DNA of 32,037 bases from Bacteroidales bacterium. Lineage in GTDB: Bacteria; Bacteroidota; Bacteroidia; Bacteroidales; UBA932. Under the pieces are notes generated by a model. The model did no database searches, was not told where the DNA came from, and was given only the letters and a program-made list of their open reading frames with translations. The stretch covers positions 1 through 32,037 of the forward strand of contig JAKSJO010000027.1 in the NCBI GenBank assembly GCA_024398125.1, written 5' to 3'. Position 1 is the stretch's first letter. Each line of letters opens with the position of its first letter. This document shows, piece by piece, positions 6,529-32,037 of this stretch. A program made the position numbers and the translations under genes.

Positions 6529-6548
6529 AGGTTATCTGGTTTTAATGT

Positions 6549-7915: not shown

Positions 7916-7917
7916 TT

Positions 7918-9015: not shown

Positions 9016-9042
9016 AGATGTCTGTTGTATTGGGAATCCGTC

Positions 9043-10047: not shown

Positions 10048-10090
10048 TCTGATTATCAAGCAGTTACGGTTGATTTTTCGGCCATATACA

Positions 10091-10122
10091 AAAAGGCATC
10101 GGGTAGTCCCGATGCCTTTTTT
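10091..10122. terminator. Bidirectional terminator between DUF2795 and lipoprotein genes
   Basis: A 13-bp perfect stem AAAAGGCATCGGG / CCCGATGCCTTTT with loop TAGT, with T-runs on both strands. It sits between two converging genes. Confidence 0.92.
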
Positions 10123-10164
10123 CAGCCCATTCCGGCTCTATCTTGTATCAAGATTATCCGGTTA

Positions 10165-11688: not shown

Positions 11689-11819
11689 TACCATTCTCCC
11701 GGAGTTTCCTCAAGCTTTTCTGTGTTGCTAAGCGCGCAGATCGAGTTCTGGTCCAATGACAACTCAATTATCTTAACCTGTGGCACCTCGTACTGAGCCT
11801 TGATTTCCTTGCTTTCCAT
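11688..11819 (-). CDS. Small ORF (43 aa) between the two lipoprotein genes
   Basis: A 43-codon frame starts at 11819 with MESKEIKAQYEVPQVKIIEL and ends with L-E-E-T-P-G-E-W before TAA at 11690-11688. It lies 29 bases after the upstream lipoprotein stop and its stop overlaps the next start codon (TAATG), so it fills the gap exactly. It resembles in length, charge and central 'K-I-I-E-L-S...I-C-A-L-S' strand the short ORFs often found beside fimbrillin-like genes in Bacteroidales (from memory). No signal peptide or membrane segment is visible. The function is unknown; it may be a real microprotein or a translational coupler. Confidence 0.6.
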   Translation of the reverse strand: MESKEIKAQYEVPQVKIIELSLDQNSICALSNTEKLEETPGEW

Positions 11820-11848
11820 AATATATCCTTTAATGTGTTAATCAATAA

Positions 11849-13450: not shown

Positions 13451-13875
13451 ATTGTATGATATTATTTAATCCCTTGTAGTTTTTCTCAGTATCAGCCACA
13501 CAACGATAACAACCTGACTTATCAGCCCGGCCGCCTACATACTCTGATTTCGGTATTCCCTTGTGAAAAAAACTGACGCTGATTCACACTACTAAAACCG
13601 GCGCGAATATATATATATATATATATAAATTTCCAAATTTTTGGCCAGGAATTTAACACATAATTGCCTGATATGTCGATGCATAGAAATAAAAAAACAT
13701 AACATAAGAATTCCCGGTCTCAGTAAAGACTGGAACCGGGATCGGTATAGGTTTAGTCAAGGGGCAGGCACCATGTTTCGGCCTTGAATAGATTCAGGAA
13801 ATAGCTTCTAGAAGTCAATCAACCAACTGTTAAGATGTCGATTTTCTGCGTGAAAAATACTACCTTCGCCGTAAG
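13451..13875. other. Intergenic region between divergent lipoprotein operon and DUF2207 gene
   Basis: This 425-bp gap holds the lipoprotein leader and promoter, an AT microsatellite, and a hairpin at 13712-13741 (stem TCCCGGT/ACCGGGA with an inner CAGT/ACTG stem and AAAG loop) of unknown role. Just before the DUF2207 start there is a box TACCTTCG (13861-13868), close to TAnnTTTG, but with no clear -33 partner; if used, the mRNA would be almost leaderless. I see no further gene. Confidence 0.6.
13604..13637 (-). promoter_or_regulatory. Candidate lipoprotein-operon promoter with an (AT)10 spacer
   Basis: The minus strand carries TTTG (13634-13637), a 22-base spacer, then TATATTCG (13604-13611), one mismatch from TAnnTTTG. 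Most of the spacer is a run of ten AT repeats (13607-13626) that also runs into the -7 box. The spacing is 1-3 bases over the usual 19-21, so gain or loss of a repeat would change promoter strength. Confidence 0.5.
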
Positions 13876-15648
13876 ATGAAAAGACTTATTGCCGGCATTT
13901 TTATACTTGTCATGTCCATGAGCCATGCGCTCGCGGGCAACACAGTCCGGTCGGTGGACGTGAAGGCCATGCTCGACAGCCTCGGAAACGCGAGAATATG
14001 CGAGACATGGTCCGTCAACATCGACAGCAGCGACTCTGAATGGTACCTGAGCCTGTCGAACCTCGGAAACGGCAGGATAAGCAACCTGGGCGTCCGCGAC
14101 CTCGTCGACGGCAGCGTCTACCTTACCGAAGACAGCTGGGACGTCGACCGGACCCGCTCGCTGAAGGCTGGAAAGTGCGGAATAGTCAGAAAAGGGAGCG
14201 ACAGCTACGAACTATGCTGGGGCGTCACCTCGAACGGCGAGCACCTGTGGGAGGTGAGCTATGATTTCGAAAACCTCGTCACCGCATTCAGCGACAGCTG
14301 CGCATTCAACCATATGTTCATCAGCGACGGACTGGCAAGCCCGCCACGATCCGCCCGCGTGGAGATCAGCTTCCCCGGGAAGGAAATCACCGACAACATA
14401 GCTTCGATCTGGAGTTTCGGATATGACGGCGAGATCGCCTACCGCGACGGCTGCATCGTGGCTGAAAGCGGCGGAGCCCTCAGGAACGATGAGGGAGTCA
14501 TCGTGATGGCGGCATTCGACAAGAGCCTTTTCTCCACCTCCAACACAAGCGAAGACAGTTTCAGCGTGATGAAAAACCGCGCCTTCGAAGGCAGCGACTA
14601 CATAACTGAAAAAAGCAGGACCTCCCCTCTCGAAGGGCTTCTGGTCATCGTGGTGCTGCTCTTCGCCGCCGTGGCGCTGATCATCATCTACTGCATGGGA
14701 CAGGTCATCGCCTCGCTCGGACTGACGTTCCTCATCTTCTTCGTCATCCCGATCGCCTGGTCGACAGTCACCCTGTTCCCGCTTAGAATGTACCTGAAGA
14801 GACGGAAGCTGCTCAGAGGCAGGCCATATTCACGAGACATCCCTGAAGGCAGGAATCTCACACGCGTTCCTTACATACTCGACCGCTACAGCTACAACAT
14901 TCTCGCGACCCCTGAAGACTGGGACAACAAGCTGACAGCCGCATACCTCGTGCGCCTGATCGAACAGGACGCCATCTATATAGACAAGACGGCCGTGGAT
15001 AAGGGACAGATAAAGCCTCTGCTCCATGTACGCAAGGGCTGGACCCTGCAGCCGGGCGTCTACAGCGAAGCCGACTCCGAGGCCATGACAGACCTCTACA
15101 AGATCATCAAGGAGGCCTCAGGCAGCGACTTCATCCTCCAGGACGGGGAGCTGAAGGCTTTCAAGAAACAGGAAGGCCTCAAGCTCGTCAAGGACTATTA
15201 CCAGAGGCGCAAGCTGGACGGCTTCGGCTCAGGAGCCGACGAGGACGCAGGCATAATGGGACTGGAAGCCTATCTCAAGGACTTCACCATCATGCCGGAA
15301 CGCGACATCCCCGAAGTGGCGCTGTGGGGTGAATACCTCGCTTACGCGACAGTCTTCGGCATCGCCGACAAGGTCATGGGCTCGATGAGACAAATGGCGC
15401 CGGACTACCCTCTCCTCGACAAGGTCTGCGACGAGGACGGCGAATACATCCTCCGCGGACAGCTCCTCGACGAGGTCTGCCACGGCATATACAAGCTCAA
15501 GAATGAAGCTGTCAAGAAAGAGAAGGCGGCAAGCAGCAGCGGAAACGGCTATGGCGGCTACTCGTCGCGATCCTCTGGAGGTGGCGGACGTTCGTCCCAC
15601 AGCGGCGGACATGGCCATTCCGGCGGTGGTGGAGGCGGCGGACGATAG
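13876..15648 (+). CDS. DUF2207 domain membrane protein
   Basis: The 590-residue protein has a signal peptide (MKRLIAGIFILVMSMSHALA), an exported beta-rich DUF2207 region (about residues 22-235) starting 'VDVKAMLDSLGNARICETWSVNI', two adjacent membrane segments (about 253-275 and 280-303), then a cytoplasmic part of about 250 residues. The last 40 residues are a Gly/Ser/His-rich low-complexity tail (GGHGHSGGGGGGGR), common in this family. The function of DUF2207 proteins is unknown. GC content looks higher than the neighbouring lipoprotein genes. It is a single gene ending at a bidirectional terminator. Confidence 0.85.
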   Translation: MKRLIAGIFILVMSMSHALAGNTVRSVDVKAMLDSLGNARICETWSVNIDSSDSEWYLSLSNLGNGRISNLGVRDLVDGSVYLTEDSWDVDRTRSLKAGKCGIVRKGSDSYELCWGVTSNGEHLWEVSYDFENLVTAFSDSCAFNHMFISDGLASPPRSARVEISFPGKEITDNIASIWSFGYDGEIAYRDGCIVAESGGALRNDEGVIVMAAFDKSLFSTSNTSEDSFSVMKNRAFEGSDYITEKSRTSPLEGLLVIVVLLFAAVALIIIYCMGQVIASLGLTFLIFFVIPIAWSTVTLFPLRMYLKRRKLLRGRPYSRDIPEGRNLTRVPYILDRYSYNILATPEDWDNKLTAAYLVRLIEQDAIYIDKTAVDKGQIKPLLHVRKGWTLQPGVYSEADSEAMTDLYKIIKEASGSDFILQDGELKAFKKQEGLKLVKDYYQRRKLDGFGSGADEDAGIMGLEAYLKDFTIMPERDIPEVALWGEYLAYATVFGIADKVMGSMRQMAPDYPLLDKVCDEDGEYILRGQLLDEVCHGIYKLKNEAVKKEKAASSSGNGYGGYSSRSSGGGGRSSHSGGHGHSGGGGGGGR

Positions 15649-15650
15649 AA

Positions 15651-15683
15651 AAACGAGGTTGACTTTTCGGGTCAACCTCGTTT
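15651..15683. terminator. Bidirectional terminator between DUF2207 and alcohol dehydrogenase genes
   Basis: A 13-bp perfect stem AAACGAGGTTGAC / GTCAACCTCGTTT with a 7-base loop and T-rich tails on both strands, between converging genes. Confidence 0.9.
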
Positions 15684-15741
15684 AATTTTATGGAAGTCAT
15701 CCATGAGCCTGAATCTTCAAGCTTCCGGGCGACCTTCTCAA

Positions 15742-16923
15742 TTATTTTGCCATGTTGTAGATAGCGATGATGTCAGCCTTCTTGAGCACCTTGAGAACGC
15801 CAAGAGTGTGAGTGTCGCCGTGCGATGCGATGTCTGCCATCTTCTCGATCTCGGCGTCGCTGACTTCCTTGCCGAGCAGGTCATGGATGTTGGTAGGCAT
15901 TCCGATAGACTCGAAATAGCGCTCCATTGCCTGGATACCTGCCTCTGCAGCCTCGAGATCGCTCATGCCTGTGATGTCGATACCCATGACATTCTTTGCG
16001 AAACGTGCGAAGCGTGGCATGTTCTCCTCGCGTGCATAGCGTGCCCAGCTTCCCCAAACGGCAGCAAGACCTGCACCGTGGCTGATGTCGAACATACCTG
16101 AAAGCTCGTGCTCGATATGATGGGTAGCCCAGTCGCCGATAGTACCGCAGCCGGTAAGGTCGTTATGCGCAAGGCTGCCTGCCCACATGATGTTGGCGCG
16201 AGCCTCGTAGTTCTCAGGCTCTGCGAGTGCCTTGGTTCCCTCGGTCATACAGGTACGGATGAGACCCTCTGCGAGTGCATCTGTGATCTCCATGTCATCC
16301 TCCTTGCTGAAGTAGCGCTCCATGGTGTGCATCATCATGTCGGTCACACCGCACGCGGTCTGCCATGCAGGAAGGGTGAAGGTGCGGGTAGGATCCATGA
16401 TCGCGAACTTGCAGCGGCAGAGGTTGCTGCTGAAACCGATCTTGATGTCGCCGTTGTCATTGGTGATCACGCTTGAGTCGCTCATCTCGCTGCCTGCAGC
16501 AGGGATGGTAAGGATGGTTCCGATAGGAAGACATGACTGTGGCTCATACTTGCGTGTATAGACATCCCATACGTCGCCGTCATAACCTACTCCGTAGCCG
16601 ATGGCCTTGCTGGAATCGATCACGCTGCCGCCGCCGATTGCAAGGATGAAATCGACACCCTCCTTGCGGCAAAGCTCGATACCCTCGTGTACAAGGCTCA
16701 GACGTGGATTTGGAACAACTCCACCAAGCTTCACATAAGCGATGCCTGCACCGGTGAGCATATCCTCAACCTTCTGGAGAAGGCCTGACTTGATTGCGCT
16801 CTTGCCGCCATAATGAACGAGCACCTTGGTTCCGCCATATTTATTGATGAGACATGGAAGATTGTCTTCCGCACCACGACCGAACACAACCTGTGTCGGA
16901 GCGTAATAATTGAAATTTACCAT
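15742..16923 (-). CDS. Iron-containing alcohol dehydrogenase (butanol-dehydrogenase type)
   Basis: This 393-residue group III dehydrogenase has the N-terminal 'NFNYYAPTQVVFGRGAEDNLP', the NAD(P)-binding 'FILAIGGGSVIDSSKAIGYG' (about 93-112) and the metal-binding region with 'TDMMMHTMERYF' and 'HHIEHELSGMFDISHGAGLA'. The last block carries the family His residues for Fe2+ or Zn2+. It resembles YqhD/BdhA-type NADPH aldehyde reductases, acting on short aldehydes in fermentation or detoxification; the substrate is not predictable. A box TATCTTTA (16951-16958, minus) 28 bases upstream may be its -7 element. Confidence 0.9.
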   Translation of the reverse strand: MVNFNYYAPTQVVFGRGAEDNLPCLINKYGGTKVLVHYGGKSAIKSGLLQKVEDMLTGAGIAYVKLGGVVPNPRLSLVHEGIELCRKEGVDFILAIGGGSVIDSSKAIGYGVGYDGDVWDVYTRKYEPQSCLPIGTILTIPAAGSEMSDSSVITNDNGDIKIGFSSNLCRCKFAIMDPTRTFTLPAWQTACGVTDMMMHTMERYFSKEDDMEITDALAEGLIRTCMTEGTKALAEPENYEARANIMWAGSLAHNDLTGCGTIGDWATHHIEHELSGMFDISHGAGLAAVWGSWARYAREENMPRFARFAKNVMGIDITGMSDLEAAEAGIQAMERYFESIGMPTNIHDLLGKEVSDAEIEKMADIASHGDTHTLGVLKVLKKADIIAIYNMAK

Positions 16924-16968
16924 TTGAGTTCCTATTTGTTATGCTGTTGGTAAAGATATAACGAATAC

Positions 16969-17000
16969 TTTGAATATGAAAAAAGACTGTTTATCTTTAC
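16969..17000 (+). promoter_or_regulatory. Promoter of the SulP transporter gene
   Basis: TTTG (16969-16972), 20 bases, then TATCTTTA (16993-17000), one base from the -7 consensus. The start codon follows at 17054. The divergent dehydrogenase has the same TATCTTTA box on the other strand. Confidence 0.65.
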
Positions 17001-17053
17001 ATTCATTATCAAAGCTCACGCATCAAGAGCGATTTAGTTAGTAGAACAACAAA

Positions 17054-18754
17054 ATGAATTTGAAAAACATCAAGGGAGACCTATTCGGCGGCATAACCGC
17101 CGGCATCGTGGCTCTTCCTCTCGCCCTGGCCTTCGGAATCCAGGCTTTCAGCGGAATTGATGACCCATCCGCTAGTTCTCTCGGCGCACTTGCAGGTCTT
17201 GTAGGAGCGACATTCCTGGGCTTCTTCGCCTCGCTCTTTGGCGGCACCCACTCCCAGATCAGCGGTCCTACCGGTCCTATGACTGTCATCACCGCCAGCC
17301 TTATCGGCGGCACCTGGGCTATGTCAGGCGGCAGCCTGTCGACTGTCCTTGTGACAATGTCTCTTGCCGGCATCTGCTGTGGACTGTTCCAGATCCTCTT
17401 CGGCGTACTGAAGATTGGAAAGTATATCAGATACATACCCTATCCTGTGCTGTCGGGCTTCATGAGCGGCATCGGTGTGATCATCATGCTCCAGCAGATC
17501 TACCCTATCGTCGGTCTGAAGGCTCCCGTGAAGGTACTTGACATGCTGATCAAATATCCCGGAGCTGTCGCCGGCGGCATCTCGCTGACCGCCCTTCTAC
17601 TGGGTCTCGGCACCATCCTGATCATCTGGCTGCTTCCAAGATTCACCAAGGCTGTGCCTGCGACCCTGGTTGCGCTGATCGTGATGACTGTGATTTCCCT
17701 TTTCCTCGATCTGGACGACACGCTGACGATCGGATCCATTCCGGCCGGCCTTCCGATGCCGTTCTTCGCAAAGAGCGGTATCTCTCTCGGCAGCATCGAC
17801 TGGGGCACAGCGATTTCATCGGCCATTTCTCCTGGACTTACGCTCGCCTGTCTCGGATCCATCGACACGCTTTTGACCTCCGTCGTGGCTGACAACATAA
17901 CCAAGACCAGACACAACAGCAATAAGGAACTCATAGGTCAGGGTATCGGAAATACGGTGGCAGGTATTTTCTGCGGCATAGCCGGCGCCGGCGCGACCAT
18001 GCGTACAGTAGTCAACGTCAAGTCAGGCGGCCGCACCCAGATAAGCGGAATGGTTCACGCCTTGCTTCTCCTCGCCATCCTGCTCGGTCTCGGCTCGCTC
18101 GTCAAGTATGTGCCGCTCTCCGTGCTCGCGGGCATCCTCATCACCGTGGGCTTCGGCATCATCGACTTCAAGGGTTTCAAGGATCTTCTCAAGGTGACGA
18201 GGGAGGACGCATTCGTACTTCTCGTGGTGTTCGTCATCACTGTCTTCGTCGACCTGCTGACAGCCGTCGGTATCGGCATGGTGGCGGCCTGCGTGCTTTT
18301 CATGAAGCGCATCGGTGACTTGGTGGAAGACCAGGAGCAGGTGTACACGATCAATTCCAATGACCGCGAGGCTCCATGGAGCGATGACGCACTCATTCCA
18401 GAGGAGATCAGAAACTCGACATACATCATGCACCTGTCCGGTCCTCTCTTCTTCGGTTCAGTGACCAAGTTTAACGAGATGGTCAAGACGGTCCCGGAGA
18501 CGGCCAGCATAGTCATCATCAGGATGAAGAAGACCGGCTACATCGACCAGTCCGGCCTGTACGCCATCGAGACAGCGGTCAGCGACCTTGCCGCGAAGGG
18601 CATAGATGTATACTTCTCGATGGTTGCAAAGCAGCCGATGGACATGCTCAAGTCCATCAGACTGGTTCCTGACATAATACCGGAAGACCATATCTTCGCC
18701 ACATTCTCGGCCTGCGCCGAATTCCTTGGATCAAGGGAAGGCTCTAACCTTTGA
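17054..18754 (+). CDS. SulP family anion transporter with STAS domain
   Basis: The 566-residue protein begins 'NLKNIKGDLFGGITAGIVALPLALAFGIQ', the SulP entry signature, and has about 10-14 membrane segments to residue ~420 including 'GGTHSQISGPTGPMTVI' and 'GLTLACLGSIDTLLTSVVAD'. A C-terminal STAS domain follows (about 440-560), with the loop 'KKTGYIDQSGLYAIETA'. SulP members carry sulfate, bicarbonate or other anions, often with H+ or Na+; the substrate cannot be read from sequence. It is a single gene; its stop lies at the start of a GATC-rich repeat block. Confidence 0.92.
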   Translation: MNLKNIKGDLFGGITAGIVALPLALAFGIQAFSGIDDPSASSLGALAGLVGATFLGFFASLFGGTHSQISGPTGPMTVITASLIGGTWAMSGGSLSTVLVTMSLAGICCGLFQILFGVLKIGKYIRYIPYPVLSGFMSGIGVIIMLQQIYPIVGLKAPVKVLDMLIKYPGAVAGGISLTALLLGLGTILIIWLLPRFTKAVPATLVALIVMTVISLFLDLDDTLTIGSIPAGLPMPFFAKSGISLGSIDWGTAISSAISPGLTLACLGSIDTLLTSVVADNITKTRHNSNKELIGQGIGNTVAGIFCGIAGAGATMRTVVNVKSGGRTQISGMVHALLLLAILLGLGSLVKYVPLSVLAGILITVGFGIIDFKGFKDLLKVTREDAFVLLVVFVITVFVDLLTAVGIGMVAACVLFMKRIGDLVEDQEQVYTINSNDREAPWSDDALIPEEIRNSTYIMHLSGPLFFGSVTKFNEMVKTVPETASIVIIRMKKTGYIDQSGLYAIETAVSDLAAKGIDVYFSMVAKQPMDMLKSIRLVPDIIPEDHIFATFSACAEFLGSREGSNL

Positions 18755-18812
18755 TCAGGTTTGGATCAGTTTTGATCAGGCTTGGATCAGGTTTGGATCA
18801 GAGGGACAGACC
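18750..18812. repeat. Imperfect tandem repeat of TTTGGATCAGG-like units
   Basis: About five to six copies of a 10-11 base unit (C/T-T-T-G-G-A-T-C-A-G-G) run from the sulP stop codon at 18752. Units begin near 18750, 18760, 18770, 18781 and 18792. The block continues into an inverted repeat. A related TTGGATCAAGGG also occurs just inside the sulP 3' end (18725-18736). Confidence 0.8.
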
Positions 18813-18813
18813 T

Positions 18814-18842
18814 TGGATCAGGGGGTCAGACCCCTTGATCCA
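18814..18842. repeat. REP-like palindrome, possible terminator
   Basis: Arms TGGATCAGGGGGTC (18814-18827) and GACCCCTTGATCCA (18829-18842) pair over 14 positions with one G-U wobble around a single A. The core GGGGTCAGACCCC resembles REP-type repeats. It lies between two converging genes and could stop transcription, though T-runs are absent. A diverged relative lies at 20062-20081. Confidence 0.7.
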
Positions 18843-18850
18843 GATCCACC

Positions 18851-19582
18851 TTATGGGAGGCGGTAGAGCCAGCCTGGAGGAGGAGCCTGAGACTGACTGG
18901 AGTTGATGTAGAAGGAGACTTCATACTGACCACCTTTGAGAACTCCCCTGCCGGCGAATGGCTTGACACCTGGGTTGTCTACCAGGGCCGCGATCTTGCA
19001 GTCTCCGTTCGGGACCGTGATGGTGGCGGTTCCACCTCTGATGATATATAGATCCCTGCTTTCAAGACCACTGTACAGGATGTGAAGAACCACTCCTGTG
19101 TTGTTCGTGATGACGATGGTACTGTATTCCGAGTCCTCGTCAAGCTTGGTGAGCTTGAAGCCAGGGAGGCTGTTGTGCGGATGATTCAGGACGTCCTCGA
19201 CATCTATGTCTATGATCTTCTGGGTAGCCTCGGCGACATGCGCGCCGTATGGATACATCGCAATATATTTCTGGTAGGCGTCCCTGTTGCCGATGGCACA
19301 GGCCTTCTCCCATGCGGTGTCCTCGCTGCCCCATTTTCTCTCTTCCAGCTTGTTCTGGAGGTCTTTCAGGGTCGAATCCTCATATCCGTCCTTGCGGATA
19401 GGAGCCGAGCCGGGAGCGTTTGCAGGGAGCGCCACCTTGCCGGGATCGATCATGATCTTTCCCGCTTTCAGGCTGCCTGATGAGCTTCTCTCGACCGCCC
19501 TCCTATTGGTGGTCGACGACTGTGCACCGGCGCTCAAAGCGAACACCAGGACGCAAAGAAGTATCGTCAGCCACTTTCTCAT
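18851..19582 (-). CDS. Secreted protein of unknown function
   Basis: The 243-residue protein has a signal peptide (MRKWLTILLCVLVFALSAGA). The middle holds 'AWEKACAIGNRDAYQKYIAMYPYGAHVAEA' (about 90-119), a Sel1/TPR-like motif seen in several Bacteroidota secreted proteins. The C-terminal 90 residues are beta-rich ('TIVITNNTGVVLHILYSG', 'TATITVPNGDCKIAALVDNPG', 'GQYEVSFYI'), suggesting a small immunoglobulin-like fold. It follows the FKBP gene by 2 bases and is probably cotranscribed with it. I do not recognise the family. Confidence 0.7.
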   Translation of the reverse strand: MRKWLTILLCVLVFALSAGAQSSTTNRRAVERSSSGSLKAGKIMIDPGKVALPANAPGSAPIRKDGYEDSTLKDLQNKLEERKWGSEDTAWEKACAIGNRDAYQKYIAMYPYGAHVAEATQKIIDIDVEDVLNHPHNSLPGFKLTKLDEDSEYSTIVITNNTGVVLHILYSGLESRDLYIIRGGTATITVPNGDCKIAALVDNPGVKPFAGRGVLKGGQYEVSFYINSSQSQAPPPGWLYRLP

Positions 19583-19584
19583 TT

Positions 19585-19995
19585 CTAATTTATCTTTATC
19601 AGCTCTATCTCAAAGATCAGCGTGCTGTGCGCCGGGATGTCAGGCTGGCTGAAGGAGCCATATCCATACTTGGCAGGTATTATGACCTCATATCTGTCGC
19701 CCTCGACCATCCTCAGCAGCGCCGCCTGCCATCCGACAATGAGCTCGCGAAGCCTGAATACGGGAGGCAGATCCATGCCCTCGGTTGTATCGAAAACCGT
19801 ACCATCTATCAGGCGTCCTGTGTAGTTGCAGAAGATTACGTCACTCAGGGCCGGCCTGCGGCGTCCATGTCCTTCCTCGAGGCGTTTCAGGAGGATGCCG
19901 CTCTCAAGCACCAGGTACTCGCCCGTCGCGGCCTTGGTCTTGAGGAACTCCTCGTTTGCAATCTTATATTGGTTAGGCTTTTTTGGTTTTCTCAT
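19585..19995 (-). CDS. FKBP-type peptidyl-prolyl isomerase
   Basis: The protein has about 136 residues from MRKPKKPNQYKIANEEF. The FKBP core is evident: 'SDVIFCNYTGRLIDGTVFDTT', 'PPVFRLRELIVGWQAALLRMVEGDRYEVIIPAKYGYGSF' and 'IPAHSTLIFEIELIKI'. Several aromatic pocket positions are kept (Y, F-D, V-I, W). There is no signal peptide, so it is likely cytoplasmic. The frame extends upstream to 20082, but a -7 box TATTTTTG at 20014-20021 (minus) lies inside that extension, so I place the start at 19995. It is cotranscribed with the secreted protein gene 2 bases downstream. Confidence 0.87.
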   Translation of the reverse strand: MRKPKKPNQYKIANEEFLKTKAATGEYLVLESGILLKRLEEGHGRRRPALSDVIFCNYTGRLIDGTVFDTTEGMDLPPVFRLRELIVGWQAALLRMVEGDRYEVIIPAKYGYGSFSQPDIPAHSTLIFEIELIKIN

Positions 19996-24102: not shown

Positions 24103-25590
24103 CTACAGCGTATATCTAAGGCCAAGGGAAACGCCCCAGCTGTCGGTGTACAGCTGACCGCGGTCTGCATATATGCCGTAGAGGAGCTGGAAACAGCCTC
24201 GATGTGACGCGAGGGGTTTAAGCACGTGCGCCAAATCAACCTCACCGACAAAGGCGGCTGAGACCTGCTTCAGACCGATTTCGTCAACAGTGCCCCACTC
24301 GTGATTCCACTGCGATTCGCCGAGATATGGCTCAATGTAGCGGCCATAGTTGTCGCTGTATGTCAGCATCAGCTTGTACGGATGCTTGCGAAACAACTTG
24401 CCGCCAAGAGCGAAATGATGCGACTTCAACCTGTTGTTTTCAATACCCTCGCTTGTAAGCGCCGATGTCCAGGTCCCTTTATAGATGCCGCCTGGCAGGA
24501 TCAGCGGATCGCAGATCGTACGTCCATGATGAGTCCAGCCTGAACGGTAGTAGCCATTGCCGAAATAGTTGTCGCCGCCGATCGTGGACGCTCCGGGAGG
24601 CGTGATGTTGTTGCCGTCCTCATCAAACTGTTCATCATTGAATGTTCCTGACTGAAACATTGTATACTGATGTTCATAAAGGATATCGCTGACCCAGCGG
24701 TTCTTGTCTTTCCAGCCGAAGTAAAGAGTGTTGACGCCGTCAGGGAAGTTCGCGAAGCCCATGCCCGAGCCGTCGGCGTAAGGAATGTCATGCTGAGCCG
24801 TGAAGGTCCAATCGTCCGCACGATACTCTGCCTTGAAGATCTCGCTGCCGCCCTGATCGCCGATGACATTCATTCTGTCACTCATGGTGCCGCTTGAACC
24901 TGCATGCGAGCCTGTCACGACGCGAAAATAGTTCTCAAAGGTAACTGGAATCTGCTCCATTTCCGGGTCTGGATGCGTTCCGGCCCACATTGCGTAGTGG
25001 TCAAGGGTTGCAGACACAGAGAAGCGATCCGTAATCGCACCATGGAAACCAAGCTTCATACGATGAACCAACGCGCCCTTGACATAGCGGTTGTCCGTTG
25101 TTGCATAGTCACCATACGCGCCGCTAAGAAGGAAATGACCGCCGGTGAACGGCACTGCCACAGGCTCCATGGTGACAAGGTAACCCGGCAGGGTGCGCGC
25201 ATTTCCGCTCTCGACGAGATGGCCTCCGGTCACGGAAAGCGAGCCCAGTCCCTCAGACGCGCCAATGAACTCGTTCTCGCGATGCTTCATTCCCATATCA
25301 AGCGTGAACTTGCTCCACCTCAACGAGCCGTACAGCTGGTCCAGCATAGGATGCACAGGGCTTGAGCCCGGATCCAGAGGATTGTCGAAGCTGTTGACAG
25401 CCATGGATGTTCCCCAACGCCACTGCAACGTCTTCTCATCATCAAACTCAGAATGAGCCTGGAAAAGAGCCATGCTGCCGTTGCGCTCCGGCATCAGTCC
25501 ATACTGATTCGTCGTCATCCAATACGGCAGATACGCATCCGACGACGACATCGCTCCAAGAAGCATCAAAGAAACTATGAAATCATTCAT
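24103..25590 (-). CDS. Capsule assembly Wzi family outer-membrane protein
   Basis: The 495-residue protein has a short hydrophobic N-terminus (MNDFIVSLMLLGAMSSSDA), then a beta-strand-rich barrel. The opening 'YLPYWMTTNQYGLMPERNGSMALFQAHSEF' and 'DGVNTLYFGWKDKNRWVSDILYEHQYT...' match Bacteroidota Wzi-family proteins, and the protein ends in an aromatic-rich final strand 'WGVSLGLRYTL' typical of outer-membrane barrels. Wzi in E. coli anchors capsule to the cell surface. Its place ahead of ugd and the epimerase supports a surface-polysaccharide role. A perfect -7 box TAACTTTG lies 25 bases upstream. Confidence 0.82.
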   Translation of the reverse strand: MNDFIVSLMLLGAMSSSDAYLPYWMTTNQYGLMPERNGSMALFQAHSEFDDEKTLQWRWGTSMAVNSFDNPLDPGSSPVHPMLDQLYGSLRWSKFTLDMGMKHRENEFIGASEGLGSLSVTGGHLVESGNARTLPGYLVTMEPVAVPFTGGHFLLSGAYGDYATTDNRYVKGALVHRMKLGFHGAITDRFSVSATLDHYAMWAGTHPDPEMEQIPVTFENYFRVVTGSHAGSSGTMSDRMNVIGDQGGSEIFKAEYRADDWTFTAQHDIPYADGSGMGFANFPDGVNTLYFGWKDKNRWVSDILYEHQYTMFQSGTFNDEQFDEDGNNITPPGASTIGGDNYFGNGYYRSGWTHHGRTICDPLILPGGIYKGTWTSALTSEGIENNRLKSHHFALGGKLFRKHPYKLMLTYSDNYGRYIEPYLGESQWNHEWGTVDEIGLKQVSAAFVGEVDLAHVLKPLASHRGCFQLLYGIYADRGQLYTDSWGVSLGLRYTL

Positions 25591-27006: not shown

Positions 27007-27263
27007 AAATATTCTTATTACTGTATTTGCTCAGGACCTTATACTATTTGAACCAGACATCTTCGTGGGTCATGAGTTAATCCAACATCGAACAAATTTA
27101 AGAAAAATTTTTCACTGCCGACAGCCGCATTGACCGAGCAAGCGCCTGTAGAACTCCATGCTCCACCTTGCCTTCGGCGGAGGGAAACTCCCCAGAAACA
27201 GCACTCTTGCATTCGCCGGGAGAAAAGGTTCCAATGGATGGTTTTCAATAGTCATTCTCAGAC
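27007..27263. other. Intergenic region between XRE regulator and PanE-like genes
   Basis: This gap of 257 bp holds the PanE-side -7 box at 27093-27100 and a GC-rich, hairpin-forming stretch (about 27120-27240) on the 3' side of the XRE gene. On the minus strand CTCCGCC pairs with GGTGGAG around an 8-base loop. No convincing gene is seen; the 69-codon frame here has no recognisable features. Confidence 0.5.
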
Positions 27264-27977
27264 TTATATTCCTGATTCGATTGCAGTGATACAGTACTGG
27301 ACCTTGGTATTGTCGCTTCGCCTTACACCAACTGTAAGCTTTACACGGCCGATTCCTACAATATAGTGCTCCATAAGTATAATCTTTGTGAACATCCTCT
27401 GATTATGTGTAGCACCTTTGACATGTTTCTCGCTTACAAGTTTGGCATTCTGGAGAATCTGGTCAAGTTGAAGAACCGCCAGAGTCGAGAGATATGTCAG
27501 TGACGCGTGACCAGATGTTTCTTCAATGGAGATATGCCTGATATTAATGTTTTCCTTTATGCTGTTATTGTATACAGAAAGTTCAGGATGTTCCGTCTTC
27601 CATTGCTCATAGAAGCGCCAGATCAGCTTTTTACGTGTACGCATCTCCTCAACAGAATTCCCTGTTGGAATATCCTCAGGTCGTATATGGAGCGATTCGT
27701 CACTTTCAGCATCACCAATGTACTGGAAATCCGGTTCGCAGATAACGTTGGAAAACGGTTCTTCATCAAAATCAACAGGATTTACATATCCTATCAGATA
27801 TTCAAGCGGCAGATTCAAGACAATAGCAGTCCTCTGGACGGTCTCCAATTTAGGAGAGCGGAATAACGACTTCACGTTTTGTCTCTGTATCCCCATCCTT
27901 CGGGCGAACTCCGCCTTTGTCATTCCTGCACGAGCAATCAGTTCCTCTCCATGCGCCTCAAATACCGTCCTATTCAT
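27264..27977 (-). CDS. XRE-type helix-turn-helix regulator with a C-terminal domain of unknown function
   Basis: This 237-residue protein has an N-terminal XRE/Cro helix-turn-helix at about residues 10-63 ('GMTKAEFARRMGIQRQNVKSLFRSPKLETVQRTAIVLNLPLEYLIG'-type pattern, shown here in part), an acidic linker (64-105) and a C-terminal domain of about 125 residues. The latter contains 'WRFYEQWKTEHPELSVYNNS', 'HISIEETSGHASLTYLSTLA' and a beta-rich end 'GIGRVKLTVGVRRSDNTKVQ' then Y-C-I-T. I remember similar tails in Bacteroidota mobile-element proteins and suspect, without proof, a BECR-type RNase-like fold. The start at 27977 (MNRTVFEAHG) lies 20 bases below its -7 box. It is likely autoregulated through the GTAAT-N8-ATTAC dyad. 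Confidence 0.72.
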   Translation of the reverse strand: MNRTVFEAHGEELIARAGMTKAEFARRMGIQRQNVKSLFRSPKLETVQRTAIVLNLPLEYLIGYVNPVDFDEEPFSNVICEPDFQYIGDAESDESLHIRPEDIPTGNSVEEMRTRKKLIWRFYEQWKTEHPELSVYNNSIKENINIRHISIEETSGHASLTYLSTLAVLQLDQILQNAKLVSEKHVKGATHNQRMFTKIILMEHYIVGIGRVKLTVGVRRSDNTKVQYCITAIESGI

Positions 27978-27995
27978 ATTATCAATCTTCTTAAT

Positions 27996-28023
27996 GCAAA
28001 TCTAGTAATAAATTTTCATTACT
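27996..28023 (-). promoter_or_regulatory. Promoter-operator of the XRE regulator
   Basis: On the minus strand a dyad AGTAAT-N8-ATTACT (28004-28023) runs directly into a perfect -7 box TAGATTTG (27997-28004). The dyad fills the spacer where -33 to -7 contacts are made, as a repressor operator would. The same block occurs upstream of the sigma-factor gene (29022-29049), identical at 23 of 28 positions. Confidence 0.7.
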
Positions 28024-28026
28024 TTT

Positions 28027-28057
28027 ATTGCTTATCAAGAAAAAAGCTATAACTTTG
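28027..28057 (+). promoter_or_regulatory. Promoter of a predicted small RNA
   Basis: ATTG (28027-28030), 19 bases, then a perfect -7 box TAACTTTG (28050-28057) on the plus strand. Transcription would start near 28062. The -33 box begins 4 bases after the end of the XRE dyad, so the regulator could affect this promoter too. Confidence 0.7.
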
Positions 28058-28061
28058 CAAT

Positions 28062-28190
28062 ACAAATCGTGAGAGTGGTTGGGCTTACGATGAAAGCGCG
28101 AAGTCCCGCATACGTTGCCCTGGCACACCAAAGCAATTCCGCTCACGTGGGCAAATCTACAAAGCAGTCTCTAACAGAGGCTGCTTTGTA
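28062..28190 (+). ncRNA. Predicted structured small RNA with terminal hairpin
   Basis: Downstream of the promoter the sequence folds by eye into a three-way junction. The outer stem is CGTGAG (28068-28073) with CTCACG (28142-28147). Helix 2 is GGGCTT (28081-28086) with AAG-T-CCC (28101-28107, one bulged T). Helix 3 is TTGC (28115-28118) with GCAA (28133-28136), containing TGG/CCA around a CACA loop. A 15-bp hairpin (28158-28190) then ends the unit, but with only a short T-rich tail. The 3' part is antisense to the last codons of the sigma gene. A 63-codon frame starting with GTG at 28069 overlaps it, so a small protein is an alternative. I do not recognise a known RNA family. Confidence 0.5.
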
Positions 28191-29003
28191 TGTATATATC
28201 CAGTCAGACACTCCTCCATCGTGCAGAATCATATCCGAAGAATCCGAGCCACAACGGTAACGCAGGGAATTAATCTCCTCTGCCTGAGTGAACTGATCAA
28301 TCGTTTCGGCATAATAGCATGACAATAGGTCATACCAGCCGCTGAAATCCGCATCCAGTCTGCTTCTCATCTCAAGAGCCTCCCTGGTCAGCAGCAACTG
28401 TTCACCCCTGAATATGCGTTCTTTCACCTGCATTGCAAAACTCTTCACCCTGTTGCACAAAACCCTGTAATAAATATGGCTTAGCCCCAGAACCAAGGCC
28501 ACATCTTTCTGCGGAAGTGCGCGATTCTTGTCAAGATACGTCAGAATCATACGCATGAAAACGAAACGTTGGACAAGAGGCAGTTCCTGGCAGCAATACG
28601 CAATCATGGTGGAGAGCACCTTTTGCATTTCGTTCTGCTGCCACAAGGATAGATCCGACAAATTGGACAAATCCATGGCAACGGCATGCATTCCATAACG
28701 CGTCTTCTTACTTACGAAATTCCTGAACGTTACAAGCAGCCAGACATCAGCCGCTGATACATCCTTGATCTCTCTGAATTTGGAATAAGCATTGTCCTCA
28801 TCACCCCTCAGATACAGGAAATACTCCTGCAATGCATCCTCAAACGCGAAAGGAGCCTTCCTTTCATACTGCCGGAACCGCCTTTGAAGCCTTGGCCTCA
28901 AAGCCTCCGTCAGCACCCTGTAAAGAGCACTGTCACGAGACTCGATATCTGCTTCTTCATCCAGAACAAGCGCCACCACCTCTGCATACTCAACGTTAAC
29001 CAT
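28143..29003 (-). CDS. Sigma-70 family RNA polymerase sigma factor (ECF-like)
   Basis: The 286-residue protein has a region-2-like part at about 30-110 ('LRPRLQRRFRQYERKAPFAF', E-D-A-L-Q-E-Y-F, 'SAADVWLLVTFRNFVSKKTR') and a region-4-like helix-turn-helix at about 140-195 ('LPLVQRFVFMRMILTYLDKN', then 'LPQKDVALVLGLSHIYYRVL', 'CNRVKSFAMQVKERIF'). Region 3 is missing, as in ECF factors, but an extra C-terminal 90 residues follow, which may sense a signal. No anti-sigma gene is adjacent. It is divergent from the phosphoesterase-RNA ligase operon, and its promoter block shares the dyad of the XRE gene. The sigma call rests on fold pattern and context. Confidence 0.7.
   Translation of the reverse strand: MVNVEYAEVVALVLDEEADIESRDSALYRVLTEALRPRLQRRFRQYERKAPFAFEDALQEYFLYLRGDEDNAYSKFREIKDVSAADVWLLVTFRNFVSKKTRYGMHAVAMDLSNLSDLSLWQQNEMQKVLSTMIAYCCQELPLVQRFVFMRMILTYLDKNRALPQKDVALVLGLSHIYYRVLCNRVKSFAMQVKERIFRGEQLLLTREALEMRSRLDADFSGWYDLLSCYYAETIDQFTQAEEINSLRYRCGSDSSDMILHDGGVSDWIYTYKAASVRDCFVDLPT
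28158..28190 (+). terminator. Strong hairpin at the end of the small RNA and of the sigma gene
   Basis: TACAAAGCAGTCTCT pairs with AGAGGCTGCTTTGTA over 15 positions (one G-U) around AAC. On the plus strand it is followed by TGTATATATC, on the minus strand by GATTTGCCC, so T-runs are weak. It overlaps the last 16 codons of the converging sigma-factor gene. Confidence 0.55.
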
Positions 29004-29021
29004 AAACTCAATCTTTCGAAA

Positions 29022-29049
29022 GCGAATATAGTAATATATTTTTATTACG
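29022..29049 (-). promoter_or_regulatory. Promoter-operator of the sigma-factor gene
   Basis: On the minus strand: dyad GTAAT-N8-ATTAC (29031-29048) next to a -7-like box TATATTCG (29023-29030), with TTTC at N20 as a possible -33. It is identical to the XRE promoter block at 23 of 28 positions, including both dyad arms and their spacing, which suggests control by the XRE protein. Confidence 0.65.
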
Positions 29050-29064
29050 AGAAATTCGCAAAAG

Positions 29065-29105
29065 CTGTAACATTTCGGCTTTCGCCGGTACTATAGGGTG
29101 AAACG
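29065..29105 (+). promoter_or_regulatory. Alternative-sigma type promoter element, copy 1
   Basis: TGTAAC (29066-29071), exactly 16 bases, then GTACTATA (29088-29095), GGGTGAAACG. There is no TAnnTTTG box here. The spacer carries a small dyad CGG...CCG. It resembles ECF promoters (TGTAAC as -35). A second copy lies at 31249-31290. It precedes the phosphoesterase start codon by 10 bases. Confidence 0.7.
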
Positions 29106-29114
29106 TATAACAAT

Positions 29115-29765
29115 ATGAACAGGATATTTTTCACTGCCGACTTGCATTTCGGCCACAGAAACATACTCAGGCACGAATCCAACAGGCCATTTGCCGCAGA
29201 AGGGCTAATCAAAGAGCATGACGAATGGCTATTGAATCTCTGGAAATCGACTGCGGACAAGAAGGACGACATCTACATTCTTGGAGACCTGACCTTCTAC
29301 AAGAATGACGATGCCAGAAAACTGCTCGAGAAACTGCCGGGGCGAAAGCATCTCATAACAGGAAACCATGATGGAAGTGTCAAGACATATTCAAGCTATT
29401 TCGCGAGCATCGTTCCTCTTCGAACTATTGTCATAAAGCCGACAAGATGCCCGTTTCTGGAAAGAGACCTACGGATTGTATTGTGCCACTACCCGCTGAT
29501 CACATGGAATTACAAGCCCTATGGCAGCCTCATGCTCCATGGCCATTGCCATGGCAAATTAGACGAGTACAACTCAAAATCTCCAGACCTCCGGTTTGAC
29601 GTTGGAATAGATGGGAGTCTGTCACGACAGCTTGGGGAAAGATCGATTGATTATGACCATGCCCTCATCAGCATCGAGGACATCTACGAGGCGGCCGTCC
29701 AGAAGGCCGGCTCGAACGACTTTCTCTCCTATGCGATGCAGAATTATCGGCAGGAGGTGAGGTAA
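29115..29765 (+). CDS. Calcineurin-like metallophosphoesterase
   Basis: The 216-residue phosphoesterase has every metal-binding motif of the family in order: DLHFGH (9-14), GDLTF (about 57-61), GNHDG (about 82-86), LCHYPL (about 122-127) and HGHCHG (about 141-146). It is the compact single-domain form also found in phages and beside RNA-processing genes. Possible substrates are 2',3'-cyclic phosphates or phosphorylated RNA ends that must be trimmed before ligation (inferred from the RNA ligase 45 bases downstream), but other phosphodiesters are equally possible from sequence. It is the first gene of the operon under the TGTAAC-N16 element. Confidence 0.88.
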   Translation: MNRIFFTADLHFGHRNILRHESNRPFAAEGLIKEHDEWLLNLWKSTADKKDDIYILGDLTFYKNDDARKLLEKLPGRKHLITGNHDGSVKTYSSYFASIVPLRTIVIKPTRCPFLERDLRIVLCHYPLITWNYKPYGSLMLHGHCHGKLDEYNSKSPDLRFDVGIDGSLSRQLGERSIDYDHALISIEDIYEAAVQKAGSNDFLSYAMQNYRQEVR

Positions 29766-29810
29766 TAGTGGTAAAAATGATAATGGTAAAAACAACACAA
29801 AACGAAGAAT

Positions 29811-31211
29811 ATGAACGAGTTAATATCTAAATCAGAAAATTTCAAGCAGGAGTACTGCTGTACGATTGTGCGAATCGGCGAAGTGCAACCCATCGAGGGC
29901 TCAGACTTCCTGGGACAGGTGATGATAGAGGGCCGCACCATTGTGGTGCGAAAGGATCAGGTGATGGAAGGGAATGTGATGTTCTACGTGTCGAACGAAT
30001 GTCAGATCAATGGAGACTTCCTAAGCATCAACAGTTTCTATGAGGACAAGACGATGAATGCCGATCCGGAGCAGAAGGGATATATCAATAAATACGGGCG
30101 CATACGCATGGTGAAGCTGCGAGGTGTTTTGTCAATGGGTATCCTGTTTTCAGAAGAGAACTTCGTGAAATGGTGTCCGAAGATGAGCGAGCTGAATGTG
30201 GAAGAGCATGTTGGCGAGGACTTCGATACCATTGCAGGTGAACTCTTCGTAAAGGCGTATGTACCTATGCGAAAAGAGAATACACATCATACTGGTACGG
30301 GCAAACACAAGATAGAGCCGAGGTTCGACCGTCTAATCCCTGGTGAGTTTCTTTTCCACTACGAGACACAGCAACTGAATCGTGAAATTGGTCGTTTGAG
30401 ACCAACCGATGTGGTGAGCATCAGTTGCAAGATGCATGGAACCAGTTTCGTGATTGGCAATGTACGCACGCTCCAACCTCGTTGGGGAGGCTTGTATGCG
30501 AGGTGTTTCACGCATCTGCCAAAGTTGCTGCAGTTCACGAAGACTGCCTACGATGTGGTATATTCCTCCCGAACAGTTGTCAAGAATAAGTACTACAACG
30601 ACAAGGTTCGCCCTGGATATTACGAAACCGATGTTTGGGGAGAATACTATGCATTGTTGGCCAAATACATCCCCAAGGGATACACGCTCTATGGCGAAAT
30701 TGTGGGATATGTTGGCGGTCTCAGCCAGATGATTCAAAAGGGTTATGACTATGGCTGTCAGCCAGGAGAAAACCGTCTGATGATCTATCGTGTCAGCATA
30801 GATGAGGGTGGAAGGAAGCGCGAACTCAATATTTCTGAGGTGCAGGACTTCTCTGACGGCCTGGTTACGCGAATGAAAGCCGATGGCAATGAAGGTGCGA
30901 CCCGTATCATACCTCTTCCGATTCTATATCATGGCACATTGCCAGAACTTTATCCATCGCTCGACACCACTGACCATTGGCATGAGAACCTTCTTGAAGT
31001 CATGAAAAACGACATCATGCATTTCGGCATGGAACAGAACGAGCCCCTTTGCCACAACAAAGTCCCTCGCGAAGGCATATGTCTCCGAATCGACAACGAT
31101 CCAATAAACGAATGCTTCAAGCTCAAGACTCTCCGTTTCCTTGGGAAAGAAGCCGAACTGATGGACAAGGGTGAGGCGGATATGGAGATGCAGGATGGAT
31201 ATGGGGAGTAA
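29811..31211 (+). CDS. ATP-dependent RNA ligase, Rnl5-like
   Basis: The 466-residue ligase has all nucleotidyltransferase motifs: I (Lys207 in SCKMHGTS, the AMP-accepting lysine), Ia (SSRTVVKN, 252-259), III (YGEIVGY, 294-300), IIIa (RLMIYRVSI, 322-330), IV (EGICLRI, 421-427) and V (FKLK, 436-439). The N-terminal 115 residues ('CTIVRIGEVQPIEGSDFLGQ', 'GRTIVVRKDQVMEGNVMFYV', 'IRMVKLRGVLSMGIL') form an OB-fold-like module, the order OB then NTase being that of the Naegleria/phage Rnl5 group. Such enzymes join 3'-OH and 5'-phosphate RNA ends. It lies 45 bases after the phosphoesterase gene, with no promoter in between. Confidence 0.88.
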   Translation: MNELISKSENFKQEYCCTIVRIGEVQPIEGSDFLGQVMIEGRTIVVRKDQVMEGNVMFYVSNECQINGDFLSINSFYEDKTMNADPEQKGYINKYGRIRMVKLRGVLSMGILFSEENFVKWCPKMSELNVEEHVGEDFDTIAGELFVKAYVPMRKENTHHTGTGKHKIEPRFDRLIPGEFLFHYETQQLNREIGRLRPTDVVSISCKMHGTSFVIGNVRTLQPRWGGLYARCFTHLPKLLQFTKTAYDVVYSSRTVVKNKYYNDKVRPGYYETDVWGEYYALLAKYIPKGYTLYGEIVGYVGGLSQMIQKGYDYGCQPGENRLMIYRVSIDEGGRKRELNISEVQDFSDGLVTRMKADGNEGATRIIPLPILYHGTLPELYPSLDTTDHWHENLLEVMKNDIMHFGMEQNEPLCHNKVPREGICLRIDNDPINECFKLKTLRFLGKEAELMDKGEADMEMQDGYGE

Positions 31212-31248
31212 TTGCACAGAACTAATTATGAAAAAAAATCCTTCCATA

Positions 31249-31290
31249 CTGTAACATTTCAGCTTTACCTGGTACTATAAGGGTGAAACG
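31249..31290 (+). promoter_or_regulatory. Alternative-sigma type promoter element, copy 2
   Basis: TGTAAC (31250-31255), exactly 16 bases, then GTACTATA (31272-31279), and GGGTGAAACG after one extra A. It is identical to copy 1 at 37 of 41 positions. In the spacer dyad the pair G-C of copy 1 is replaced by A-T, so the pairing is kept by a double change. It precedes the start codon at 31310 by about 20 bases. Confidence 0.7.
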
Positions 31291-31309
31291 ATCATACTTT
31301 AGCATCATC

Positions 31310-32037
31310 ATGAAAAAATTGAACGCAATGCTCGCAGTGGTCGAGCAAAGTGCATCGCAATGCACAAAAAGTCTGAAGGAACTTGCCACCTGCTTCAAGA
31401 AGTGCTCGAGCGATTTCCTTGGAGTGAAGAAAACCTACACCGCGCGTGAAGGATATGCAGACGACCCTTCCAAAAGAGGTTACAAACGAGTCGTATCTAC
31501 AGTTGATGAGAAGATTGAAGCTCTGCAAAAGGAACTCTCAGCTCATCTCAACGATCTGTTCACCATCGAACGCACCAATAGCATTGGAGCAGCCAAGGTG
31601 CCGCTCGTTGTCGAGGGACATAATTTTGGCGAGCTGACCGCCATAGAGCTTATGCGCCTGAAGTCGTTCCTTATGCGAGAGGAGTTCGAGCAGATATTCA
31701 ATGCCATTCCTGTTCGTTCAGATGCTGAGGAATGGACTCGCACTACGGACTCCGATTACGAAGGGCGCGAGATTTGGGAAACACCTTTGATAAAGGGTGT
31801 AGCAAAGACTTCAGAGAACGAGGAGGTTATCCTCAAAGATCCGAACCTGAATCCTGAGAATCTTCCTGCCAATTATGTTGCAAAGACGACCATAAAGCGC
31901 AAGACTGTGGAAGTGGGAGACTATACTGCTCAGAGCTTCTCAGGAGAATGGAACCAGCGCCAACGCTCTGAACTTCTTCGTCGCCGAACGACTTTGCTCA
32001 AGGCCGTTATTGAGGCACTCAAAGTGGTGAATGACGT
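31310..32037 (+). CDS. Uncharacterised protein, partial (runs off the window)
   Basis: An open frame from ATG at 31310 continues without a stop to the window end: 242 codons are visible. It begins MKKLNAMLAVVEQSASQCTK; the middle contains 'SIGAAKVPLVVEGHNFGELT' and 'LMREEFEQIFNAIPVRSDAEEW', and the visible end is helical 'QRQRSELLRRRTTLLKAVIE'. The layout (MKKLN start, a central 'V-x-V-x-G' strand, then a leucine-rich helix and 'L-P/I-P-V-x-x-A-x-x-W') resembles a family I associate with DUF7873, from memory only. There is no signal peptide or membrane segment. It has its own copy of the TGTAAC-N16 element and so belongs to the same regulon as the RNA ligase. Confidence 0.7.
   Translation, partial: MKKLNAMLAVVEQSASQCTKSLKELATCFKKCSSDFLGVKKTYTAREGYADDPSKRGYKRVVSTVDEKIEALQKELSAHLNDLFTIERTNSIGAAKVPLVVEGHNFGELTAIELMRLKSFLMREEFEQIFNAIPVRSDAEEWTRTTDSDYEGREIWETPLIKGVAKTSENEEVILKDPNLNPENLPANYVAKTTIKRKTVEVGDYTAQSFSGEWNQRQRSELLRRRTTLLKAVIEALKVVND

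Follow-up and report, generated by a model that had tools for sequence, protein, structure and literature searches.

We describe a candidate regulatory locus at the end of a 32,037-base stretch of DNA (hereafter the window) from a Bacteroidales bacterium with a genome size of 2.34 Mb, the window being one complete contig. The order is indicated by the nearest named relative, Candidatus Liminaster caballi, and by the promoter type. From position 27264 to the contig end the locus holds, in order, an XRE-type gene (minus strand), a small structured RNA (plus), a sigma-like gene (minus), a metallophosphoesterase (plus), an RNA ligase (plus) and a DUF7873 gene (plus). Its most conserved novelty is the RNA, which represents a real family of ~97 nucleotides (nt) that is absent from Rfam and that, judged by gene neighbourhood, is paired with LPD3-type proteins inside the bacterial family and once outside it. 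Sequence comparison indicates that the circuit around this RNA is real and recurrent, with a predicted core of XRE-LPD3 repressor, RNA, sigma-like gene, a promoter-like repeat (element B) and DUF7873, while the ligase and phosphoesterase look like exchangeable cargo whose relatives are mostly phage-borne. Tentatively, and at a little below even probability, we read the locus as an inducible emergency regulon in which RNA-linked, XRE-gated and sigma-driven control would govern RNA repair and tRNA supply.

The structured RNA family

The RNA lies at 28064-28156 on the plus strand, 14 nt downstream of the -7 box TAACTTTG. A preliminary description of this DNA had predicted a structured RNA here, and the promoter box, the hairpin and a ~97-nt family with compensatory changes confirm it as real; that description missed that it belongs to a conserved family which goes together with LPD3-type proteins. 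Ten copies were used to build a model, which was run over 34 sources, 31 of them with an LPD3-type gene, and matched 27 of the 34 at E up to 1, with 25 of these below 1e-4; the two weak matches are in L164 (E 0.033) and in the window (E 0.035, 17.7 bits). The RNA is found beside 27 of the 31 LPD3-type genes examined: in all 16 sources with an XRE-type protein (the partial locus L154 included) and in 11 of the 15 matched over the C-terminal domain alone. It is convergent with the protein gene at that gene's 3' end in 26 of 27 cases, terminator-like hairpins follow it in the copies read (16 XRE-type copies and L161), and the promoter box TAnnTTTG occurs within 60 nt upstream of 25 of the 27 (5% in shuffles). 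Run over 37 other loci (693 kb), the same model gave no match.

The fold is supported by the 27 sequences, in which 86.5% of cells pair, 17 of the 20 pairs show double (compensatory) changes, and the covariation score is 0.409, against 0.188 when shuffled and at most 0.113 when slid. A further CCCC/GGGG pseudoknot is only suggested, being 94% paired but nearly invariant, with one double change and 33 of 500 shuffles equally high. Membership of a known Rfam family was rejected, as scans at gathering score of the window and nine relatives gave tRNA only and permissive scans of two RNA copies gave matches far below gathering scores only.

Outside the bacterial family, an RNA-only search of 104 genomes of the order returned one further match (E 0.001) in another family; the open reading frame (ORF) convergent with it matches the protein-family profile (23.9 bits, E 3.5e-8 among the ORFs of that locus), whereas tblastn with the protein family and a Pfam scan gave nothing there. 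A DNA search of 299 genomes of the bacterial family gave three matches, in the window's own genome, in G027 and, to the promoter part only, in a third. The copy in G615, a genome of the same genus, matches the model at E 5.5e-8 and is identical to the window RNA at 71 of 94 aligned positions.

Some individual copies deserve mention. The two RNAs without a TAnnTTTG box (L146 and L147) directly follow tRNA sequence, which suggests that the small RNA can be processed from the tRNA transcript in these cases. At the four LPD3-type loci without a recognised RNA at the 3' end (L166-L169) the domain lacks the short GIG loop, and the RNA may be diverged or different. In G188, a genome with a decayed copy of the circuit, an LPD3-type gene and its RNA are kept on contig 33 (L165), so the LPD3-RNA pair survives without the sigma regulon.

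Layout of the locus

The features of the locus, with the evidence for each, are as follows.

27264..27977, minus strand: XRE-type repressor with LPD3-like C-terminal domain (P0001), predicted from Pfam and PHROG profile matches.
28005..28022: operator copy 1, GTAAT-N8-ATTAC, adjoining the -7 box of the XRE promoter (TAGATTTG, minus strand).
28028..28057, plus strand: RNA promoter, TTG-N19-TAACTTTG, labelled Bacteroidota-type after what we take to be the consensus; from sequence, with the upstream box in 25 of 27 family members.
28064..28156, plus strand: structured small RNA of the ~97-nt family; cmsearch model R1, 17.7 bits, E 0.035.
28160..28188, plus strand: strong terminator-like hairpin at the RNA 3' end; position conserved.
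28143..29003, minus strand: sigma-like divergent regulator (P0002), suggested by a weak sigma-2 profile match.
29031..29048: operator copy 2, at the sigma-like gene promoter (GTAATAAAAATATATTAC then TATATTCG, minus strand); same 18-mer before the G615 homologue.
29066..29105, plus strand: element B copy 1, TGTAAC-N17-TACTATA, a proposed target promoter of the sigma-like factor.
29115..29765, plus strand: calcineurin-like metallophosphoesterase, variable cargo; PF00149, phrog_547, metal motifs.
29811..31211, plus strand: ATP-grasp RNA ligase with N-terminal oligonucleotide-binding (OB) domain, Rnl5-like architecture, variable cargo; PF09414, PF21189, phrog_968.
31250..31290, plus strand: element B copy 2, preceding DUF7873.
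31310..32037, plus strand: DUF7873 gene, truncated at its 3' end where the contig stops; PF25283.

The XRE-LPD3 protein and its operator

A putative XRE-type regulator is indeed encoded where the preliminary description placed one: P0001 falls just under the Pfam cut-offs for HTH_3 (22.1 bits, cut-off 23) and LPD3 (PF18798; 23.1 bits, cut-off 27), reaches 19.2 bits against HTH_26 (cut-off 22), and matches PHROG transcriptional regulator families at 2.6e-6 and 3.6e-6. When five other members were scanned for LPD3, one scored above the cut-off of 27 (34.6) and three below it (21.6, 18.4, 16.1); the G615 protein P0006 gave no LPD3 match up to E 0.1 in the Pfam scan. The LPD3-like C-terminal domain is also found standalone, and one such protein passes the Pfam LPD3 cut-off. 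Of 299 family genomes, 58 gave matches to a profile of the XRE family, 80 rows altogether, from which 30 rows were taken as loci, one per genome and including the window's own. Solved relatives of the XRE-LPD3 family were sought by sequence and none was convincing.

The predicted operator is carried by comparison among these loci. GTAAT-N8-ATTAC stands exact beside the -7 box in all 15 upstream regions of full-length XRE genes examined (window, G615 and L141-L153), and an exact copy arose in 1 of 2000 trials with base-shuffled upstream sequence; the box beside it is TAnnTTTG in 14 of the 15 and TACCTTCG in L144. One and the same operator 18-mer stands before the sigma-like gene in the window and in G615, in both cases beside a -7-like box (TATATTCG and TATCTTCG respectively), so that, by sequence, the sigma-like gene is a predicted target of the XRE protein. 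The operator (element A) has two copies in the window and none in 100 shuffles, and a longer pattern, at up to two mismatches, finds these two copies alone genome-wide. As the reversed pattern is likewise found twice in the genome, the rarity of the operator is not proof by itself and its support is comparative.

The frequent pairing of RNA and domain invites a different account, in which the two form a toxin-antitoxin-like pair: the RNA would neutralise an RNase-like LPD3 domain, the XRE fusion would be self-regulating, and the sigma regulon would have come later to repair the damage done by LPD3. Consistent with this, the 11 loci noted above have the domain beside the RNA without an XRE head, although in three of them (L155, L158 and L161) the matched stretch is interrupted by in-frame stops, so that these genes may be broken. 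The predicted order of secondary-structure elements in the domain (helix-strand-helix-helix-three strands) is also what we take to be that of RelE-type nucleases. LPD3 has moreover been named in polyvalent proteins of Helicobacter phages and prophages, in the context of PBECR RNase domains, where the passages on LPD3 give the domain no function (PMC5512222). On the other side, the structural model of P0001 is of very low confidence (mean predicted local distance difference test score, pLDDT, 40.2) and has no fold match in the PDB at E 0.001, no catalytic residues were identified, and the RNA is convergent rather than tandem-repeated. We consider this account unlikely.

The sigma-like gene and element B

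P0002 had been described as a sigma-70-family factor, a label that we do not retain: as it has no sigma-family match in Pfam, NCBIfam, PHROGs or PDB sequences, we call it sigma-like. The assignment is weak, drawing on a profile match, on the arrangement of element B, which is like that of a promoter, and on co-occurrence. The profile match, by hhalign, is to the sigma-2 region of two proteins taken by eye for extracytoplasmic function (ECF) sigma factors (E 9e-4, probability 23%); the structural model is all-helical and of low confidence (pLDDT 43.6), with no PDB fold match at E 0.001. Relatives were found only in G615 (75% identity), in L011 from Candidatus Liminaster caballi (30%) and as fragments in G188, and the protein search of 299 family genomes, a sample that does not include G615, found it in two (its own and G188). 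A second C-terminal fragment of such a gene lies elsewhere in G188 (L067 on contig 9, 7342-7479; 74% over 46 residues), and a 374-residue ORF without a Pfam match adjoins the homologue in L011 (4721-5845, minus strand).

Element B, TGTAAC-N16/17-TACTATA, has exactly two copies in the 2.34-Mb genome, both at this locus, and the backwards control has none. Copy 1 precedes the phosphoesterase-ligase pair and copy 2 precedes DUF7873; a rigid 40-base pattern matches copy 1 only, because copy 2 is one base longer. The two kinds of shared element reported earlier are therefore both present in duplicate, and the idea that they bind the genes into one circuit is borne out by the operator at the XRE and sigma-like genes and by the positions of the two element B copies. 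Across 398 family genomes, the source genome counted, element B occurs in three (G000, G188 and G615), and in these and in L011 it shares a contig with an intact or broken sigma-like gene, within ~2.5 kb. Exact pattern matches in 50 viral stretches raised the candidate of a common phage promoter, which was rejected: none of the 50 has the conserved flanks (GGTACTATA then GGGTGAAA) and none encodes a relative of P0001-P0005 at E 0.01, so we take these matches as chance.

P0002 might instead be a helical activator unrelated to sigma factors, which would bind element B and assist the housekeeping polymerase, the rest of our scheme being unchanged, and the want of any family match or significant structural match for the protein agrees with this. 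Yet element B is arranged like a promoter of two hexamers spaced 16-17 nt apart, without the TAnnTTTG box of the XRE and RNA promoters, and the sigma-2 match, weak as it is, points the same way. We regard a helical activator as somewhat unlikely.

Recurrence of the circuit

That the circuit recurs is seen in three relatives. The G615 copy (L138), on a 538-kb contig, has the order sigma-like gene (75% identity), operator, a variant element B (TACTATT), DUF7873 (92%), tRNA-Thr(TGT), RNA and XRE gene (55%), after which come a second element B, an ORF6N-domain gene and another ORF. Part of the circuit is present in Candidatus Liminaster caballi (L011), where one element B stands directly before the ligase and 1 kb from the sigma-like homologue; this ligase is 91% identical over the first 187 residues, and a DNA search found neither its remainder nor any DUF7873 in that genome. 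The copy in G188 (L066) is decayed: what is left is part of a sigma-like gene, element B and ~30 bases similar to the beginning of DUF7873. Both this copy and that of G615 adjoin the same neighbour gene, AlkD-like by eye, which indicates the same, stable chromosomal site.

Between 1 and 27006 of the window there is a tRNA-Glu(CTC) gene at 2729-2803, and five of six further ORFs scanned are ordinary chromosomal genes (ketopantoate reductase, UDP-glucose dehydrogenase, epimerase, sulfate permease and DUF2207), the sixth (24103-25590) having no Pfam match. Next to the XRE gene, 27152-27255 on the minus strand is a 5' gene remnant with 81% identity over 105 alignment columns to a gene of L011 (7133-7738, minus strand). 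That gene is open in L011 and placed between the sigma-like gene and the ligase; its product is DNA glycosylase-like by eye, with no match in Pfam.

The RNA ligase and phosphoesterase

The ligase passes the Pfam cut-offs for PF09414 (28.4 bits, cut-off 27) and for the N-terminal OB domain PF21189 (35.2 bits, cut-off 27; residues 17-113), and matches phrog_968 at 1.7e-45. Its motif residues, K207-x-H-G (K207, H209, G210), YGEIVG at 294-299 (E296), EG at 421-422 and K437-x-K439, which we take to be nucleotidyltransferase motifs I, III, IV and V, are conserved in 50-52 of 51-52 aligned segments (52 loci, some near-duplicates). The motifs and OB domain of the motif-complete, Rnl5-like ligase described earlier are accordingly in place, whereas membership of the family is a different matter: at 24.7 bits the protein is far below the cut-off of the TIGR02306 equivalog (151.15), so it is called Rnl5-like and not filed as Rnl5. 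Its N-terminus gives a weak phmmer match to the Naegleria ligase (E 0.055). The metallophosphoesterase was correctly named, with PF00149 above the cut-off (24.0 bits, cut-off 21.5), phrog_547 at 5e-42 and metal motifs present.

Both enzymes have relatives in phages. Those of the ligase occur in 360 phage records, including 15 Prevotella phages (11 of which, among the matches listed, are Lak), in 42 viral contigs of up to 412 kb at 57% identity or less, and in 10 genome-collection contigs; the nearest are L011 (91%) and two contigs of metagenome-assembled genomes (67% and 60%), the other relatives found being mostly viral. Among the 299 family genomes, again excluding G615, the ligase is found in six, in three of them over ~110 N-terminal residues only. 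The preliminary description had named ligase homologues lacking these neighbours as a refuting observation, and such relatives do exist, in G019, G155 and L007; the ligase accordingly looks like mobile cargo rather than the part that defines the locus. The phosphoesterase has relatives in 1900 phage records, the best being the uncultured and presumably crAss-like phages cr50_1, cr1_1 and cr55_1 (43% identity). In 13 of the 42 viral loci, some near-duplicates, one of its relatives is found no further than 10 kb from the ligase gene. A 161-kb viral contig bearing the ligase (L019) also has a transfer-messenger RNA gene by ARAGORN at 1443-1777. Association of the cargo with plasmids was rejected, as 72,556 plasmid records contained the ligase in one and DUF7873 in none. 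The proposed repair function of the cargo follows from known families, since ligases and phosphatases of phages are believed to reverse the cleavage of tRNA (PMC7824862, in part).

DUF7873 and tRNA genes

The uncharacterised gene reported at 31310 is indeed a gene and can now be placed in DUF7873 (PF25283; 109.5 bits, cut-off 27; 3e-31), although it is cut by the contig end; the complete G615 homologue has 263 residues and is 92% identical over the 242 residues compared. A protein search of 295 genomes of the order, from which G615 is absent, found DUF7873 in its own genome alone. Its other relatives are in 15 phage records, all Lak, and in four viral contigs. One of these, a 269-kb jumbo viral contig (L060), has DUF7873 within a 20.7-kb stretch with 31 tRNA genes (5197-19679), and nine tRNA genes follow it in L084; there is at most one tRNA gene in L082, in L083 and in either of the two Lak loci read.

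With cargo of this kind, the locus might be the regulatory end of a genetic element that derives from a phage or parasitises phages. The XRE protein would then be its immunity repressor, the sigma-like protein would activate late genes, and the captured phage auxiliary genes would work for the element and not for the cell. The phage relatives just given for ligase, DUF7873 and phosphoesterase fit such an origin, as do the ORF6N domain in G615 and the sporadic distribution with one decayed copy. A viral source of the XRE or sigma-like gene was rejected, however: P0001 and P0002 have no relatives in the viral collection, in two scans that were seeded on short exact peptides and detect mainly near relatives. 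Nor was any integrase, capsid or packaging gene seen by eye around the G615 copy, where most ORFs were not profile-scanned, and the neighbour gene common to G615 and G188 argues for a stable site. An element of this kind seems improbable to us.

A model for the locus

In the emergency regulon that we favour, the XRE-LPD3 protein would bind GTAAT-N8-ATTAC at the -7 boxes of its own and the sigma-like promoters and keep both off; the operator is drawn from comparison, and binding and repression are our inference from it. The ~97-nt RNA, made from its own promoter, would be the partner of the LPD3 domain, as their neighbourhood suggests, and would set the activity of the repressor, so that cleavage or loss of the RNA under RNase or phage attack may release it. 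The sigma-like protein would then be made and could steer RNA polymerase to element B. The genes thus turned on would be a phage-type set that mends or replaces broken translation RNAs: in the window, the phosphoesterase would clear blocked ends and the ligase seal them, with DUF7873 in addition, while in G615 the set would be DUF7873 with a tRNA-Thr gene downstream. The narrower term RNA-repair locus, used earlier, fits the ligase and phosphoesterase found here but not G615, whose version has neither enzyme and holds, besides DUF7873, the tRNA-Thr gene downstream of it and the ORF6N-domain gene behind the second element B.

Several observations weigh against this model. The G615 circuit has no ligase and no phosphoesterase, and the one complete ligase-bearing copy of the circuit found has its 3' end missing. 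The window RNA is a marginal match to the model, was missed by the stricter scan of its own genome in the 104-genome search, and is placed 5' of the XRE gene rather than convergent with it at the 3' end; the RNA alignment, moreover, was fitted to the structure, which favours the covariation result. The operator is absent before the distant sigma-like homologue in L011, and the sigma-family searches with P0002 were, as noted, negative. DUF7873 has no activity known to us, and neither of the two Lak loci read has a tRNA array next to it within 6 kb.

A stronger version of the model, which we think rather unlikely, is that the locus represents a new class of RNA-sensing switch: the small RNA would be a sentinel whose integrity is read by the XRE-LPD3 repressor, and its cutting by RNases would release the repressor and so lead, through the sigma-like factor, to a phage-derived kit for repair and tRNA replacement. 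Already in the main reading, what is new is the pairing of RNA and LPD3, together with a sigma-like switch dedicated to cargo of this type. Among the titles and abstract openings covered by a literature search, with few subscription journals included, there was neither a ligase locus under sigma or XRE control nor an RNA associated with LPD3.

Comparison with known systems

RtcR-RtcBA is the one inducible bacterial RNA-repair operon of which we know. It resembles the present locus in placing RNA-ligase genes under a dedicated regulator (PMC7790460, PMC9879122; both in part), and the title of PMC7790460 states that the operon is regulated by damaged tRNAs. Its parts are different: the ligase there is of the RtcB type and the regulator a sigma-54 activator carrying a CARF domain, against an ATP-grasp ligase, an XRE repressor, an LPD3-like domain, a sigma-like factor of its own and a dedicated structured RNA here. 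Jumbo phages use sets of tRNA genes, ATP-grasp ligases and phosphatases, the last being calcineurin-like in a few, to reverse attacks on tRNA (PMC7824862, in part); those sets are in phage genomes, whereas this one is on a bacterial contig under a putative repressor and sigma-like switch. Rnl5 (Deinococcus DRB0094 and Naegleria Rnl5) shares with the window ligase an N-terminal OB domain followed by a nucleotidyltransferase domain, and weak sequence matches, but the window ligase is far below the family cut-off and its relatives are mostly viral.

Two further likenesses concern the regulators. ECF sigma factors with a paired regulator also combine a small divergent sigma-like gene with a short promoter element of its own; they are under anti-sigma control, in contrast to the DNA-binding repressor and RNA partner proposed here, and P0002 is a putative member. 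Type III toxin-antitoxin systems likewise place a structured RNA beside a small protein that possibly acts on RNA, whereas the RNA here is convergent, single-copy and unrepeated and its protein LPD3-like, often fused to a repressor head. If our reading is right, the locus would be a second route, unrelated to RtcR-RtcBA, by which RNA damage is coupled to repair, using genes captured from phages and a dedicated sigma-like factor. Independently of this, the RNA family forms with its LPD3-type partner a recurrent, conserved pair that is directly testable.

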